Source of the DNA: Deltaproteobacteria bacterium
Lineage (GTDB): Bacteria > Desulfobacterota > Dissulfuribacteria > Dissulfuribacterales > UBA3076
NCBI GenBank assembly: GCA_011042225.1
Contig: DQXT01000139.1
Span: 1-34,057 of the forward strand
Reading direction: 5' to 3'
Length of the DNA stretch: 34,057 nucleotides
The position numbers and the translations under genes are program-made. Each line of letters begins with the position of its first letter. Position 1 is the first letter of the stretch. The notes below the pieces were generated by a model. That model made no database searches and was not told the DNA's origin. It worked only from the letters and a program-made list of their open reading frames with translations. Below are positions 18,710-26,026 of this stretch, piece by piece.

Positions 18710-19315
18710 TTAGGCCTTTTTGTTCAGTCTTTTGCGGCCAAAGACGATCATCCCTAATAGACCTGTACCTACGAGCAATACAGTACCAGGTTCGGGGACA
18801 GGGGCAGCAGCAGTAACAGTAGCTGAAACAGTAGTTCTGTCACCAACACCTATTAATGATAAGTCTTCAAAATCTACATAGAAATAGTTACCGTCGGATA
18901 AAGACATTGTCTGAGGCATATCTCCCCAAGTTAAACAGCCCCCTGAAATAACGCCAAAGATGGTAAACCAATTTCCATTACCTGTACCAGTTATTTCCGA
19001 TCCAGCGGGTTGGTCAAATGCTAATGTTGCTTCAATGTTCGCTGTACCCCAGCCAAGGAATCCATCCACTATGATGTCAAAAAAATCAAATGTGTAGCTT
19101 TCGCCATAATCTAGAGAGAATTCTACGTCCTCCAAATTCTCTGAGAGAATGGCTGATATCCCAGTACATCCTGTCGTGCTTATGTTATCCAGTTCTACTG
19201 AAGAATAGGGTTCTCCGGCTAGGTTAAAATCGATCGGGATAGCTCCTGCAGTCGCAACCAACGTAAAAACTAGCGCACTTGCAAATAAAAACACCCTGAG
19301 CTTTTTCATTCTCAT
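18710..19315 (-). CDS. PEP-CTERM sorting domain-containing secreted protein
   Basis: A 201-residue exported protein. A signal peptide is clear (MKKLRVFLFASALVFTLVATAGA), and the C-terminus has the full exosortase sorting signal: VPEPG, a hydrophobic stretch (TVLLVGTGLLGMIVFG), then RKRLNKK. In PEP-CTERM systems such proteins are cut by exosortase and delivered to the surface or matrix, often with exopolysaccharide. The mature part (about 150 residues) is acidic and Gly/Ser/Thr-rich, with two Cys residues (in TTGCTG and SGGCLTW) that could pair; I do not recognise the fold. Two starts are possible, 19315 or 19309. A sigma54 promoter and repeated motifs lie upstream and the likely activator gene lies downstream. 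No exosortase gene is in the window. Confidence 0.92.
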   Translation of the reverse strand: MRMKKLRVFLFASALVFTLVATAGAIPIDFNLAGEPYSSVELDNISTTGCTGISAILSENLEDVEFSLDYGESYTFDFFDIIVDGFLGWGTANIEATLAFDQPAGSEITGTGNGNWFTIFGVISGGCLTWGDMPQTMSLSDGNYFYVDFEDLSLIGVGDRTTVSATVTAAAPVPEPGTVLLVGTGLLGMIVFGRKRLNKKA

Positions 19316-19996: not shown

Positions 19997-21313
19997 CTAG
20001 AACAGGACCTGGAAATGCGTAACAAGGATATCATTGTCAACGTCCTTGCCGTGTATCTCTTCTCTGAATGAGTAGTTGAGCTGCCACTTGATATCCTGAC
20101 CGTGAATGAACCAGTTGTATCCAATGGTATACCAGCGGCTGTCCAAGGTATTATCAACATCCACATTCGGATCAAACTCATCATATCGCGCAGTGAGCTG
20201 GAAATTGTCCGTGAGGTCTACCTGTGCCTGTATGCCGTATCCGTATTGCCGTTTGGATTTGTTGCCGTCTTGCGTTATATATTCAAACTGCAGGTGCACA
20301 GGCTTCCAGTCGAATGCGCAGTTAAAATCCCAGAGCTGCAAATTATTGGCAACCTTGTGGTGAGCTATGGGATATGCATAGTAGCCGTCAATCTCTTCCG
20401 CTCGGCCAAGTACCGTGGTTTCATAATCATAGCCGGTCTGATCGTAGGCATAGCTTGTGCCTAAAATAAAATGTGGTGACGGCCGCCAGAGGAACATGCC
20501 GGAAACCATGAAATTTTCGTTGTCGTTACGCATACGATTGAAGGAGTTGCCGTTGTATAGACCGACTGCGTAAAAGAACGGCGCGTCATGGATTTTTGCC
20601 CCCTGTGTTCGTCCGTCCCATTCACCCCTTCTGGGTGACTCCAGGCTGATCCCGATTTCACGCTTTCGGGCGAGCTTGTCGATCACAAGAGGGCGTTCAC
20701 ATAGCGGAAGTTTCGGTCCGGCCGTAGTATATGACGGTGAGAAACGCGACTTAAACTGCCCAACCCTTACGTTGATAAAAGGATGCGCCTTATAGACAAA
20801 ATATGCGTCCTGGAGTTTTACGCCAATATCCTGTTTTTTGAGTTCATAATCCGGCGTTGCAGGATCCAGCCTGTCTTCATTGTGATCGCCGTCCACGCTG
20901 AGCTGTACATGGTATTTCCACCGATCATAAACGTCGCCGTACCAGCGGAGACGAACACGGCGCATAGAAAACCCGTCGAATTCAGAGTCATCAAATGCAT
21001 TTTGATGGATTACTTTATCTAAATCGCCATTTTCAATATGTGTGTATCGTGCCTGTACACGTCCCTTAAAGTTCGAAGTCATGGGTTTACGGACGCTTTT
21101 TACCGCAAATTCTTTTTCGTCCGCAGGCGGCGCTTGCTCTTTCTCGATTTCCTTAATGCGTCCCTGTCTTATTTTAATAATATCATCCTCAGTAACTATC
21201 CCTTTTTCAATAAGCACTTGAAGCAACTCCTCGGCCGTCAATTCGGCAAGGCAGTTACCAACAGTGCCGAACAAAAAAGACACCAAAAAAACAGCACAAT
21301 ACAATTTTTTCAT
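19997..21313 (-). CDS. Phosphate-selective porin O/P family outer-membrane protein
   Basis: A 438-residue beta-barrel porin. The signal peptide is MKKLYCAVFLVSFLFGTVGNCLA. A short mature N-terminal segment (LTAEELLQVLIEKGIVTEDD, then a charged, coiled-coil-like stretch) precedes the barrel from about residue 75, with typical alternating strands (GRVQARYTHI, RMRRVRLRWYGD-like girdles, QLQDAY-type turns) and a C-terminus ending in an aromatic residue (FQVLF), the outer-membrane assembly signal. The overall pattern is that of OprO/OprP-like proteins of Gram-negative anaerobes; phosphate selectivity cannot be read from the sequence. The ATG overlaps the stop of the upstream Cys-rich gene (ATGA at 21313-21310), so the two are coupled. 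Confidence 0.87.
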   Translation of the reverse strand: MKKLYCAVFLVSFLFGTVGNCLAELTAEELLQVLIEKGIVTEDDIIKIRQGRIKEIEKEQAPPADEKEFAVKSVRKPMTSNFKGRVQARYTHIENGDLDKVIHQNAFDDSEFDGFSMRRVRLRWYGDVYDRWKYHVQLSVDGDHNEDRLDPATPDYELKKQDIGVKLQDAYFVYKAHPFINVRVGQFKSRFSPSYTTAGPKLPLCERPLVIDKLARKREIGISLESPRRGEWDGRTQGAKIHDAPFFYAVGLYNGNSFNRMRNDNENFMVSGMFLWRPSPHFILGTSYAYDQTGYDYETTVLGRAEEIDGYYAYPIAHHKVANNLQLWDFNCAFDWKPVHLQFEYITQDGNKSKRQYGYGIQAQVDLTDNFQLTARYDEFDPNVDVDNTLDSRWYTIGYNWFIHGQDIKWQLNYSFREEIHGKDVDNDILVTHFQVLF

Positions 21314-21795: not shown

Positions 21796-21846
21796 TAAAA
21801 GTCAATATATTGTGTGATATTATTACGATTTCGGAGGCAAAACGCT

Positions 21847-22983
21847 TTGATCAAATCGGCCCGAAAATATATAGAAGATTTTAAACAGATAAAAAGGCCC
21901 TTTTGGGCCTTTCAGATTGAGCCTACATCACGATGTCGGCTACGATGTATCATGTGTCCCAGGACGTGCTTTTCAAAAGAGTGGAAATCGAGAGATATGT
22001 CCATTTCAAGTTACATGAAAATCAGCAGGCACTTTCAAAAAGTAAGGCATATACACCTCCAGGGCTGGGGCGAACCACTTCTTCACCCTAAATTGTTTGA
22101 AATGGTGAAGATTGCCAAGTCTTCCGGTTGCAAAGTGAGCATTACAACAAGCGGGCAGACCTTTAACAGCGATAACTTAGAGAGACTTGTCGCAGAACGA
22201 GTTGATATTATAACTATTTCTATTGCAGGTGCGTCGCAGGAAACTCATGAATCTATCAGGACCGGATCAGATTTAGATGCCATATTTAAAAATGTAAAGT
22301 GGTTAGGTAATTACAAAAAGAAAATAAGGTCTGAAATTCCCAGGATACATTTTTCATACTTAATGACAAAGACTAATCTTGGTGAATTGCCTGAATTCCT
22401 TGGTATCGCAAAGGGCATTGGTGTACAGGAGGTAGCGGCCACAAATCTGGATTATACCCCTGCCCTGCTTCAAGATGAATTGAAAATATTTTTCGACAAG
22501 AAGATCAGTACACTTCAAAGGTATATAAAAAAGATAGAGAAAACCGCAGCCGGGCTTAAACTTCCCCTACGCATATATCCTCTGGTTATGGAGGAAGAGG
22601 TTGTCTGTGAACTGGATCCGCTTCACATCCTTTTTATTGCGAGCGATGGTAAGGTATCACCCTGTGTTTATCTTAAATTGCCCATTGATGGTATGATCCC
22701 AAGAATCTTTTGCGGCAGCGTGATTAAAGTGCCTCAATTATCTTTCGGGGACATCAACAGCCAGGACCTTATTGAAATATGGGATAAGAGAGAATATAGA
22801 GAATTCAGGGAAAATTATGTCAGGAGGACTGAAGCACTTTCAGAGGCGTATAAAGATATAGATTTGAATCTCTTCGGCACTATGGGTAAAATGAAAAAGG
22901 CCGAGAGAGAAATGCAAAAGGCCTTGAAGGTCTTTCCTCTCCCTTCTTTTTGCAGGACATGTTATAAGGCATATGGTATTTAA
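21847..22983 (+). CDS. Radical SAM protein with SPASM-like C-terminus
   Basis: Iron-sulfur enzyme that cleaves S-adenosylmethionine to start radical chemistry. The N-terminal motif IEPTSRCRLRCIMCPR has the C-x3-C-x2-C cluster ligands, followed by HLQGWGEPLLHP (the GGE-like strand), a TTSGQ strand and SIAGASQETHESIR. The C-terminal region has further Cys residues (VVCELD, GKVSPCVYLK, FCGSV and the end FCRTCYKAYG) in a SPASM-like arrangement that would bind auxiliary clusters. The frame is open from a GTG at 21814; GGAGG at 21833-21837 fits the TTG at 21847, giving 378 residues. The substrate is unknown. A secreted subtilase gene follows 120 bases downstream; no precursor peptide is visible. 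Confidence 0.85.
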   Translation: MIKSARKYIEDFKQIKRPFWAFQIEPTSRCRLRCIMCPRTCFSKEWKSRDMSISSYMKISRHFQKVRHIHLQGWGEPLLHPKLFEMVKIAKSSGCKVSITTSGQTFNSDNLERLVAERVDIITISIAGASQETHESIRTGSDLDAIFKNVKWLGNYKKKIRSEIPRIHFSYLMTKTNLGELPEFLGIAKGIGVQEVAATNLDYTPALLQDELKIFFDKKISTLQRYIKKIEKTAAGLKLPLRIYPLVMEEEVVCELDPLHILFIASDGKVSPCVYLKLPIDGMIPRIFCGSVIKVPQLSFGDINSQDLIEIWDKREYREFRENYVRRTEALSEAYKDIDLNLFGTMGKMKKAEREMQKALKVFPLPSFCRTCYKAYGI

Positions 22984-23106: not shown

Positions 23107-24963
23107 ATGATATTTGCTTCGAATTTTCTTAAAAAATGTTTTATTTTTTTTGTTATATCATGTTTGACTGTAACGTCCGAGTTGTCTGCAGGTGAAGGTA
23201 AATCATATATAGAGGGAGAAGTGCTGATCCAGCTGAGACAACAGGATTATGCAGTAACAGACAGGCGAACCCGTATTCTTAAGGCATTGGATGTCGATGT
23301 CATCAAGAATTTGAGAGACAACGTTTACTTAGTCAGGCCGGCAAAAGATGAATCGGCAGTCAGTGCAGCAAGGCGGCTTGGTAAATATCCGGATATAGAG
23401 TTCGCTGAGCCGAACTACAAACGGTATATTAAGTCAGTGACTCCGAATGACCCTCTTTTCTATTCACAGTGGGCCCTTGAGAACATCCAAAGTGGAGATG
23501 CATGGGAAATACAAAAGGGTGATGCGGGAATTATAGTTGCTCTTCCCGATACAGGGATTGATTATACACATAAGGATCTCAAAAATAATCTCTGGAAAAA
23601 CGGCGGGGAAGACTGGAGTGCCTCTGGTCCAGGATATAACGGCATAGACGATGATGGGGATGGATATATAGACAACTATTTTGGAATCAACAGCATCACA
23701 GGTAGTGGAGATCCCATGGACGATGAAGGCCATGGGACTCATATCGCCGGGATCATCGGCGGTGAAGGCGATAATTCCATAGGAATAAGCGGTGTTAACT
23801 GGCGCGTGTCATTAATGGGCGTCAAGTTTATCAGGGCTGTTGATGGAAGTGGAAGCATAGCCGACGAGATCGAGGCTATTCAGTTTGCAACAAGCAACGG
23901 GGCAAAGGTGGTTAATATGAGTTTTTCTGGAAATTATTTTTCAGAAATTGAAAGATATGCCATTGAGAACGCAAGAAATGTGCTATTTATTGCGGCGGCA
24001 GGCAACGAAATAATGAATAACGATTATATGCCCAATTATCCTGCCGACTATAAACTTCCTAATATTATATCCGTTGCCGCATCGAACCAGTCTGACGAGC
24101 TGGCTTTTTTTTCAAATCAAGGCAGCAATACTATCAGTGTGGCGGCACCCGGTGTCAATATCCTTAGTACGGTTCCAGGTGATGACTATTGCTCTCTTAG
24201 TGGAACTTCCATGGCCACTGGCTATGTGACCGGCTTGGCAGCCCTTGTATTGGCAAAAAGTCCATATAGCTCTGTGGCGGACTTGAAGGATAGAATTCTG
24301 AGGACAGTCGATACCAACGCCGATCTACAGGATAAAATTTTGACAGGCGGCCGTATAAACGCCTACAGGGCACTTACAGAATCAATAACAGGACCGTATA
24401 TATACAATATCTCTCCCGACAGGGGCCCGACAGGTTCTGAGGTCTCCATTCAAGGAACATGCTTTGGAGGAACTGCCGGGCATGTCATTTTTGAGGCTGA
24501 TCTTGAAGCCGCTATAATTTCCTGGACGAATGAGAAGATTGTATGCCTTGTTCCGGAAGGGGCCGCAACAGGGTCCATTTATGTTGAGACCTCAGGCGGT
24601 TTAACAAGCAATGGGCTGAATTTTGAGGTAACCTTCTATCCCGCAATGGGAAGGATCGCCTTTCCTTACATAAATGTCGAATCAGGCCGGAGTTCATTTA
24701 TCTTTCTCTCTAATCCCCTGGATTATTCTATAACTGTAGAGGCCTTTGCAGTGGGATCAAGTGGTGACAATACCTTAAAGTTTATGAGTATTGATCCCTT
24801 TGGAAAAATTATAATGGATATTAAGGGGTTCGGTATTTTAAATGAGCCTTTCTCCCTGGATTGCAGCTCAGAGGAATTGTTTGGGGCAGCTATTTTAACT
24901 ATCAAAGAAGATGTGGGCGAGGTAATGTTTTTGCCTCACTTGATTTTTAGGGGAATCCGCTGA
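23107..24963 (+). CDS. Secreted subtilisin-like serine protease (S8) with IPT/TIG domain
   Basis: A 618-residue exported protease. Signal peptide: residues 1 to about 28. A propeptide of about 80 residues follows (IEGEVLIQLRQQDY ... YPDIEFAEPNY), a typical S8 intramolecular chaperone. The catalytic triad is Asp148 (LPDTGID), His209 (EGHGTH) and Ser368 (GTSMATGYV), with the oxyanion Asn in AAAGNE; all are present, so the enzyme should be active. A calcium-type loop (DDDGDGYIDNY) lies between Asp and His. Residues about 429-510 form an IPT/TIG Ig-like domain (ISPDRGPTGSEVSIQG). The last 105 residues resemble the secreted protein encoded at 25521-25988. The lipoprotein gene follows after one base. 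Targets are unknown. Confidence 0.92.
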   Translation: MIFASNFLKKCFIFFVISCLTVTSELSAGEGKSYIEGEVLIQLRQQDYAVTDRRTRILKALDVDVIKNLRDNVYLVRPAKDESAVSAARRLGKYPDIEFAEPNYKRYIKSVTPNDPLFYSQWALENIQSGDAWEIQKGDAGIIVALPDTGIDYTHKDLKNNLWKNGGEDWSASGPGYNGIDDDGDGYIDNYFGINSITGSGDPMDDEGHGTHIAGIIGGEGDNSIGISGVNWRVSLMGVKFIRAVDGSGSIADEIEAIQFATSNGAKVVNMSFSGNYFSEIERYAIENARNVLFIAAAGNEIMNNDYMPNYPADYKLPNIISVAASNQSDELAFFSNQGSNTISVAAPGVNILSTVPGDDYCSLSGTSMATGYVTGLAALVLAKSPYSSVADLKDRILRTVDTNADLQDKILTGGRINAYRALTESITGPYIYNISPDRGPTGSEVSIQGTCFGGTAGHVIFEADLEAAIISWTNEKIVCLVPEGAATGSIYVETSGGLTSNGLNFEVTFYPAMGRIAFPYINVESGRSSFIFLSNPLDYSITVEAFAVGSSGDNTLKFMSIDPFGKIIMDIKGFGILNEPFSLDCSSEELFGAAILTIKEDVGEVMFLPHLIFRGIR

Positions 24964-24964
24964 T

Positions 24965-25441
24965 ATGAAAAGGGTTGTTGATTTTATAATAATAGCTATG
25001 ATAACTTCATTTGTAGCATTCGGTTGTGCTGCTAATTCTCCCATTGGATCCGTCAGGGATGAAGAGAGCATACTTAGAGAAAGGGTTAATCTCTTTTGGA
25101 AGGCAAAGACTGCCGGGGACTGGGATGAAGCAAAAACCTTTGTTGACCCTGATCTCAGGCGGGAACTTACTCCGTATTTCGAGCGTTTAAAGTCAAAACG
25201 TTCAAATGCCGAATATAAATCAGTCAATGTGGGAGAGATCGCTATAGAAGGTGAGACCGCCGTTGTACTGGTCGATGTGGCTGTCAAATTGATTCACCCC
25301 ATGTTGTTATCCCTGCCGGTACAGCAGAGGCAGATAGAAGAGTATTGGACAAGAAAGAAAGACACATGGTATGTGGTAATAAGAAAGCCGGATGTCTCTG
25401 AATTTTTTGAGAGATTCGGCCTGGAAGAAGAAAGGAGGTGA
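24965..25441 (+). CDS. Predicted lipoprotein, NTF2-like
   Basis: A 158-residue protein with an N-terminal hydrophobic segment ending in VAFGCAANS; the Cys is a plausible lipidation site although the lipobox is not classical. The mature part begins with an Arg/Glu-rich helix (ILRERVNLFWKAKTAGDWDEAKTFVDPDLR), then beta strands (VNVGEIAIEGETAVVLVDVAVKL, EYWTRKKDTWYVVIRK), the layout of NTF2-like/SnoaL-type small domains found in many lipoproteins of this group. Function unknown. It starts one base after the subtilase stop, so it is in the same operon. Confidence 0.75.
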   Translation: MKRVVDFIIIAMITSFVAFGCAANSPIGSVRDEESILRERVNLFWKAKTAGDWDEAKTFVDPDLRRELTPYFERLKSKRSNAEYKSVNVGEIAIEGETAVVLVDVAVKLIHPMLLSLPVQQRQIEEYWTRKKDTWYVVIRKPDVSEFFERFGLEEERR

Positions 25442-25520
25442 GGTCGTTTTTTCAGCAAACAGATTGACAAGGGAACGTTATACTAGACCGGAATCATCTA
25501 TAGGAAAAAGGAGAGGTAAA

Positions 25521-25988
25521 ATGAAAAAGAAGATCTTGGGGATTTTGCTCGTTATATGTGTAATATTTTCATCTGGACTAGCGGGGGCCGCCACTATATC
25601 ACAGGCTGATCTCCCCAAGCATTTGGAGTCCGCTGTGCCAGGTTCCTATGCGCTTTGGTTTCCTGCGGTACCTGACATTCCGGGTCCTCCTTTTTATTGG
25701 AAAAGTTATATCATAATAGCCAACTGGTATGGTGTTAATGTTACTGTTTCGGTTACGGCCACGGCATTCAGTGATGATCCCAACAACCAGCCTACAACCA
25801 AATCATATACACTTGGCCCATTTCAGAAGATAGTCAGGCAGCTTAGCGACTTCGGCTTCAGTAATACCATAGCAGATATCTGGATTACTTCAGATTCCCC
25901 TATTTTCGGTGCCACCGTGCTTCTGATGGATTCAGACACATATGAAGTACTGACTGCAATCCCGCATATTGATATACAGGTGAATTAA
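25521..25988 (+). CDS. Secreted protein homologous to the subtilase C-terminal domain
   Basis: 155 residues from the ATG at 25521, which has AGGAGAGG at 25509-25516; the upstream extension of the frame to 25392 overlaps the lipoprotein gene and is not used. Signal peptide: MKKKILGILLVICVIFSSGLAGA. The mature part is predicted all-beta. Its pattern SYIIIANW ... TVSVTATAFS ... LGPFQKIVRQLSDFG ... SDSPIFGATVLL ... IPHI matches in order the last 105 residues of the subtilase (SFIFLSNP ... TVEAFAV ... IDPFGKIIMDIKGFG ... SSEELFGAAILT ... LPHL). The shared domain looks like an adhesive or surface beta-sandwich; function unknown. Third gene of the subtilase operon, with 79 bases after the lipoprotein gene. 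Confidence 0.78.
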   Translation: MKKKILGILLVICVIFSSGLAGAATISQADLPKHLESAVPGSYALWFPAVPDIPGPPFYWKSYIIIANWYGVNVTVSVTATAFSDDPNNQPTTKSYTLGPFQKIVRQLSDFGFSNTIADIWITSDSPIFGATVLLMDSDTYEVLTAIPHIDIQVN

Positions 25989-25996
25989 AAAACCCA

Positions 25997-26026
25997 GGGC
26001 AATACGGAGGAATATGCGTATTGCCC
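25997..26026. terminator. 10-base-pair hairpin terminator between convergent operons
   Basis: GGGCAATACG (25997-26006) pairs perfectly with CGTATTGCCC (26017-26026) over a 10-base loop. On the minus strand it is followed by TGGGTTTTTT, a good terminator for the ATPase transcript; on the plus strand the tail is only moderately T-rich. Confidence 0.8.

Follow-up and report, generated by a model that had tools for sequence, protein, structure and literature searches.

A secreted subtilase, a small lipoprotein and a small secreted protein are encoded side by side in a 34,057-nucleotide stretch of DNA (hereafter the window; contig DQXT01000139.1 of assembly GCA_011042225.1) from a deltaproteobacterium of the order Dissulfuribacterales. 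Judged by sequence similarity, the C-terminal tail of the subtilase and the free secreted protein are two copies of one domain, which can be placed among divergent relatives of the ASRAH superfamily. We propose, with a probability of about 0.5, that the products of these genes work together as a small extracellular set, in which the tail and the free protein may dock together on one surface structure and the lipoprotein would act as their partner. The set comprises the following features.

23107–24963, + strand: secreted subtilase of 618 residues, recognized by its Pfam domains and a signal peptide seen by eye
23179–23415, + strand: fervidolysin-type prodomain of the subtilase (Pfam PF22148, E = 1.5e-7)
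23524–24324, + strand: S8 catalytic domain of the subtilase (Pfam PF00082, E = 2.5e-55)
24394–24627, + strand: IPT/TIG domain of the subtilase (Pfam PF01833, E = 4.4e-10)
24637–24960, + strand: putative C-terminal ASRAH-like domain of the subtilase, residues 511–618, from BLASTP, profile comparison and conservation
24965–25441, + strand: small lipoprotein, perhaps NTF2-like, with a lipobox-like cysteine 21 seen by eye; family assigned by hhalign
25521–25988, + strand: putative free secreted ASRAH-like protein, 155 residues with its signal peptide (by eye), from BLASTP and profiles
about 25590–25985, + strand: mature domain of the free protein

The three genes follow one another in the order subtilase, lipoprotein, free protein, and the lipoprotein gene stands between the other two, as an earlier note on this DNA, made from the letters alone, had described. 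A single base separates the stop codon of the protease from the lipoprotein gene, and a AGGAGAGG site (by eye) precedes the gene of the free protein. The catalytic triad D148, H209 and S368 (motif positions), together with the PF00082 match, places the protease in family S8. The signal peptides and the lipobox of the set, all assigned by eye, agree with the extracellular setting that the note had assumed, as do the extracellular relatives of the domain described below.

The last 108 residues of the protease match the free protein with 31% identity over 74 residues in BLASTP (38.1 bits, E = 2e-9). When the tail was searched against its own genome (E ≤ 10), it found itself and the free protein (E = 2.9e-6) and nothing else. 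Profile–profile comparison of tail and free protein gave 88% probability and E = 3e-6; the lack of a significant profile match, which the earlier note had named as fatal to its idea of a shared domain, was thus not what we observed. An alignment of four rows, tail and free protein from each of two genomes, contains 28 invariant columns. The ordered series of motifs that the note had read in both proteins largely holds: S-[FY]-I, [DG]PF.KI[IV], FG, FGA and PH occur in order in both, while TV-x-A is looser (TVEAF versus TATAF). In the free protein of the second genome, PFQKI is replaced by PYQKM.

The second genome of the genus (JAGYNZ010000017.1) keeps subtilase, lipoprotein and free protein in the same order, and is the one other genome of the genus in which the trio recurs. 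Identity between the two genomes is 94% for the free protein and 93% for the tail. The ratio of non-synonymous to synonymous substitution rates (dN/dS) for this pair is 0.074 for the tail, 0.087 for the free protein and 0.095 for the catalytic domain, compared with 0.195 for the prodomain, 0.219 for the TIG domain, 0.252 for the lipoprotein and 0.076 and 0.150 for the flanking genes. The two copies have the lowest values of the set, by a small margin below the catalytic domain in a single genome pair; both are under purifying selection and, on this pair, no less conserved than the catalytic domain.

Direct searches with the window domains returned no named family in Pfam or NCBIfam, nor on plasmids or viral contigs. 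The tail matched no Pfam family at E ≤ 10, and the other rows of the four-row set gave chance-level Pfam matches only (HAP2-GCS1, E = 0.12, in 2 of 4 rows; HPS6, E = 0.33). One sequence search of the Protein Data Bank (PDB) found no match and another found four, all at E ≥ 1. A search of genome contigs recovered nothing but the second genome, and in 395 phylum genomes the four-row profile matched nothing outside its own genome; one weak match in the window's order (E = 0.097) was discarded, falling within what we take to be a glutamate synthase.

A first lead came from predicted structure. Models of the tail and the free protein, built from two-row alignments, reached mean pLDDT (predicted local distance difference test) values of 40 and 55; the tail model was unusable and its fold search was disregarded. 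Foldseek with the free-protein model gave no match at E ≤ 0.001, and among the 50 matches listed TM1070 (1NC7, rank 15) had the top probability, 0.85. Realignment of the model against 996 chains (VIA comparison) placed TM1070 (1NC7) first with Z = 4.0 and the Anabaena sensory rhodopsin transducer (ASRT, 2II7) second with Z = 3.1, rows less than 1 Z apart being counted as tied. We regard these matches as a lead to a possible fold, not as proof, and therefore examined the ASRAH superfamily.

ASRAH domains comprise ~100 residues in an all-beta fold with a hallmark Asn after strand 2, and occur in solo and fused forms (PMC2739507). Membership is further marked by a Trp at the start of strand 1 and by an eight-stranded sandwich of two four-strand repeats, and the secreted forms are fused to an enzyme (an amidase) or lie within surface lipoproteins (PMC2739507). 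Sugar binding has been proposed for the superfamily from genomic context and structure (PMC2739507; de Souza, Iyer and Aravind 2009).

To reach extracellular relatives, we searched the 395 genomes with PF07100, the ASRT family, which recovered ASRT proteins from a single genome and, from a different genome, a secreted protein of borderline score (E = 7.6e-4). The domain of this secreted protein, used as a query, matched in 12 of the 395 genomes, and iteration yielded a 76-row domain profile to which the window's genus contributed no row; two of the rows are from ASRT and some are repeated by overlapping loci. With hhalign, this profile scored 25.4 against the tail, 27.2 against the free protein and 29.3 against both together. 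No shuffle out of 200 attained any one of the three scores, and nine control pairs stayed at or below 18.2; tail and free protein also outscored the rotated-reversed alignments (0 of 40) and the reversed alignment.

With ASRT rows inside it, the 76-row profile is circular for ASRT, and a stricter profile without window or ASRT rows was used for that relation. Across 965 open frames it recovered two ASRT proteins (E = 2e-4 and 4e-3) and the free protein of the second genome (E = 0.0024) and of the window (E = 0.032); just two frames other than those of ASRT or window type fell between E = 0.001 and 10. A PDB search with a 30-row profile, likewise without window or ASRT rows, placed ASRT 2II7 second among 8 matches (E = 0.0098); another PDB search, with ASRT rows inside the profile, is circular for 2II7 and was not used. 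Compared with Pfam at E ≤ 0.1, the 30 members matched DUF5719 (5 of 30), ASRT (2 of 30) and Slr4 (2 of 30, best E = 2.8e-6), and one full protein of ten exceeded the DUF5719 cut-off (38.9 versus 26.2 bits).

At least 90% of 41 domain rows retain the hallmark Asn, as do both window copies (N68 in the free protein, domain residue 26 in the tail). The free protein carries W46 and W60 and the tail no Trp; in the extracellular relatives the Trp lies nearer strand 2. Neither window copy contains the ASRT ligand signature SHEshChhN, the strand reading WKSYIIIAN or GRSSFIFLSN instead, and the hidden Markov models (HMMs) of PF07100 and of DUF5719 (PF18986) do not match the window domains, although relatives match DUF5719. 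The copies are neither members of the ASRT family proper nor direct DUF5719 matches. Because profiles free of window rows match both copies, ASRT and DUF5719, we conclude that both are likely divergent, extracellular ASRAH/DUF5719-like domains. Of the two, the free protein is placed more firmly; the placement of the tail also draws on its similarity to the free protein. The module is probably a beta-sandwich. The domain, for which the earlier note knew no name, can thus be given a provisional one.

The note had also called for a search for other carriers of the domain and their neighbours. A 41-row profile, window rows included, found carriers in 33 of 390 phylum genomes, the window's own among them; neighbourhoods were taken for part of the listed matches, and many of these genomes are split into hundreds of contigs. 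At least 36 distinct open frames carry four copies of the domain, a count taken from frame groups picked with a profile holding window rows, of which only the copy number and not the scores was used. Among the modules fused to the domain are rhodanese, FG-GAP, beta-helix and PKD domains, transglutaminase-elicitor enzymes and a subtilase with PA and PKD domains. The subtilase, a further subtilase–ASRAH fusion, has 1567 residues and combines PA, Fn3-like and PKD domains with four ASRAH domains (locus L101, 6931–11631, − strand), and at three loci (L097, L036 and L043) a rhodanese domain is followed by four ASRAH domains. Pfam confirmed the transglutaminase-elicitor family (PF16683) in the four enzymes scanned (L107, L116, L118 and L208); at other loci the label transglutaminase-like comes from a home-made profile.

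The intervening lipoprotein belongs to a family that recurs beside ASRAH-like genes, a point that the earlier note had missed. An iterated profile seeded with the window lipoprotein alone picked up, in its second round, six lipoproteins encoded next to ASRAH genes (E = 4.3e-7 to 3.7e-4); a third round added two more. Aligned by hhalign, the window lipoprotein pair and the lipoproteins of transglutaminase loci matched over 131 columns at E = 1.1e-11, with none of 100 shuffles as good, and they belong to one family. Of 20 members, 3 weakly matched DUF4440, a family with an NTF2-like fold (best E = 0.01); the window member was not among them, and the PDB gave no convincing match to the lipoprotein (best E = 0.038).

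A scan of 34 genomes (the second genus member and the 33 with ASRAH matches) located the family at 25 places, spread over 20 of the genomes. At 17 of the 25, an ASRAH gene is found no more than 1.2 kb away, counting one on a weaker ASRAH match (G311, E = 4.7e-4) and one lipoprotein piece at a contig end placed by coordinates (G182); this is not an unbiased rate, because the genomes were chosen for ASRAH matches and the alignment held lipoproteins with known neighbours. A less biased search with the window lipoprotein in 60 relatives found 18 places; among the 14 inspected in the window's order, four have an ASRAH neighbour (the window, its sister, G008 and one weak case). The lipoprotein occurs with a transglutaminase-like enzyme at 15 loci (the 14 included in a lipoprotein tree, and G182), counting G008 of the window's own family. 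These loci span six families, ten of them coming from one family, and in two of them the enzyme is convergent. Eight have same-strand ASRAH genes on both sides of the lipoprotein, as in the window, the upstream ASRAH gene of one being an 80-residue piece at a contig end.

The lipoprotein tree puts the 14 transglutaminase-linked rows on one side of a branch (support 83/78) and the two subtilase-linked rows among the others. The idea that the window set is a plain derivative of a transglutaminase operon finds no support in this tree, in which the window lipoprotein branches outside the transglutaminase-linked group; the set is more readily read as a lineage of its own that shares the syntax than as that operon with another enzyme swapped in.

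Elsewhere in the window's order (L202–L207, L167 and L210), the lipoprotein often lies between secreted or CAP-like genes and secreted beta-rich proteins of ~300–460 residues, two of which were scanned without matching a Pfam family. The ~300-residue proteins that follow the lipoprotein resemble ASRAH proteins by eye, and were rejected as such after 2 of 60 and 8 of 60 shuffles reached their profile scores; their better HMM scores are partly circular, one of them having entered the profile.

Taken together, the N-termini suggest that the subtilase and the free protein would be exported and the lipoprotein anchored in a membrane. Like other ASRAH domains, the free protein would form a homo- or hetero-oligomer and in this form dock on a glycan or layer at the surface, and the subtilase tail would dock on the same structure, confining proteolysis there. 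The recurring gene order suggests that the lipoprotein would be devoted to such proteins, as their partner in the periplasm or at the surface. Sets of this kind in related bacteria have a transglutaminase-like protein as their enzyme. More broadly, and at odds slightly short of even, these loci may represent a modular surface cassette, with a dedicated lipoprotein flanked by secreted ASRAH-type sandwich proteins and an exchangeable enzyme, that builds, cross-links or processes a surface layer. The enzyme is transglutaminase-like in six families, including the window's own, and a subtilase in the window's genus; the window would then be the most compact form, with a single domain on the protease and a second as a free protein.

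Several observations weigh against co-docking of tail and free protein as an ASRAH-type set. Within the genus, a search at E ≤ 1e-5 recovered the subtilase from just 2 of 8 genomes. Both structure models, though mostly beta, are poor, the best chains for the free protein, 1NC7 and 2II7, are tied with unrelated rows, and Z values of 3–4 are also reached by unrelated folds, a designed protein and cysteine dioxygenase among them at 3.1. With the stricter profile, E-values for the tail are weak: 1.1 (window) and 0.65 (second genome) in full frames, and 0.13 at best in frames cut by locus ends. In the PDB, the 30-row profile scores best with an IgA Fc receptor, an unrelated protein (E = 0.0092), and its eight matches do not include TM1070. 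No ASRAH neighbour was recognized at 8 of the 25 lipoprotein places or at 10 of the 14 inspected in the less biased search, and the window lipoprotein stands outside the transglutaminase-linked group, with modest support.

The main rival to docking is a direct pairing of the two copies, in which tail and free protein would bind each other to complete an ASRAH dimer or tetramer and the free protein would be a subunit or anchor of the protease. Solo TM1070 and ASRT proteins form tetramers with a cleft partly at the dimer interface, and multi-domain forms contain dyads or tetrads (PMC2739507); the earlier suggestion that the two proteins bind the same partner or each other fits such oligomers, and the ASRAH paper, with its oligomers and proposed sugar binding, supports both options. 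The four-copy frames, and two well-conserved single copies in two proteins of one operon, point the same way. However, the copies are only about 30% identical, and transglutaminase loci also mix single-copy and multi-copy proteins, so pairing is not singled out. We consider pairing possible, with the odds clearly against it.

Protease operons can encode inhibitors, and a free protein sharing both operon and domain with the subtilase could instead be a regulator or decoy that competes for the docking site of the tail, is cleaved by the subtilase or inhibits it. It matched no inhibitor family in Pfam or NCBIfam, however, and ASRAH domains elsewhere sit on enzymes that are not proteases (transglutaminase-like, rhodanese), which favours docking over protease control and makes such a regulator improbable. 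Least probable of all is a tandem duplication without a joint role beside an incidental lipoprotein: the copies are each other's sole match in the genome, the set occurs in two genomes of the genus (the free protein in 2 of 60 relatives, its own genome counted) and most inspected lipoprotein loci of the order have no ASRAH neighbour, but neither copy is less conserved than the catalytic domain, and other families repeat the pattern of a lipoprotein flanked by ASRAH genes.

Around the set, an inverted repeat, GGGCAATACG...CGTATTGCCC, at 25997–26026 lies 3′ of the free-protein gene between convergent genes; it was noted by eye only, and its 10-base loop falls outside the limits of the terminator scan. 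Upstream, the gene at 21814–22983 (+ strand) encodes a Radical SAM/SPASM protein whose best NCBIfam neighbour, a tungsten-cofactor maturase, lies below the cut-off. It was rejected as a member of the set because the syntenic locus of JAGYNZ010000017.1 lacks such a gene; there, only 464 bases separate the upstream frame from the subtilase. The protein at 18710–19315 (− strand) bears a PEP-CTERM-like C-terminal sorting tail, labelled by eye, and adjoins a porin-like gene (by eye) at 19997–21313; the second genome has counterparts of both.

These results place a domain that standard libraries miss in both window proteins, extend the ASRAH superfamily to tails carried by rhodanese proteins, transglutaminase-like enzymes and secreted subtilases, and bring out an uncharacterized lipoprotein as a repeated neighbour of ASRAH genes. 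If co-docking is correct, the set offers a testable case of how environmental bacteria retain exo-enzymes at the surface. Among the matches listed, literature searches found no description of a modular lipoprotein–ASRAH cassette, no paper on DUF5719 and nothing beyond the ASRAH paper on ASRAH-tailed subtilases or transglutaminases; the listed PF16683 papers (8 of 11) concern oomycetes.

Proteases are also among the proteins that carry the C-terminal domain of Type IX secretion. That domain, reported as a conserved beta-sandwich of secreted proteins (PMC4804311), differs in being a Bacteroidetes outer-membrane export signal that is cleaved off. Slr4 is an S-layer protein (PF19526; PMC7821379). 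The C-terminal ASRAH domain upstream of one lipoprotein (L128, 3–1325, + strand) matches the C-terminal part of Slr4 (E = 4.2e-5; 23.3 bits versus a cut-off of 25), and that upstream of another (L133, 8390–8908, − strand) does so below the cut-off (E = 0.016). In contrast, no protein of the window set matches Slr4 in Pfam, so that the similarity, coming from another genome's locus, is at most a hint of surface layers. DUF5719 resembles the window domains in matching their relatives, one above the cut-off, and differs in not matching the window domains themselves. The transglutaminase-elicitor loci share with the window a lipoprotein of the same family near ASRAH genes, whereas their enzyme is transglutaminase-like with two to four ASRAH matches and their lipoproteins lie on another branch. 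The ASRAH superfamily itself differs from the window domains in the His/Cys ligand signature of its ASRT family and in its fusions, none to a subtilase or transglutaminase being seen in the main text of PMC2739507; both nevertheless comprise domains of ~100 residues with an Asn after strand 2, in solo and enzyme-fused secreted forms.

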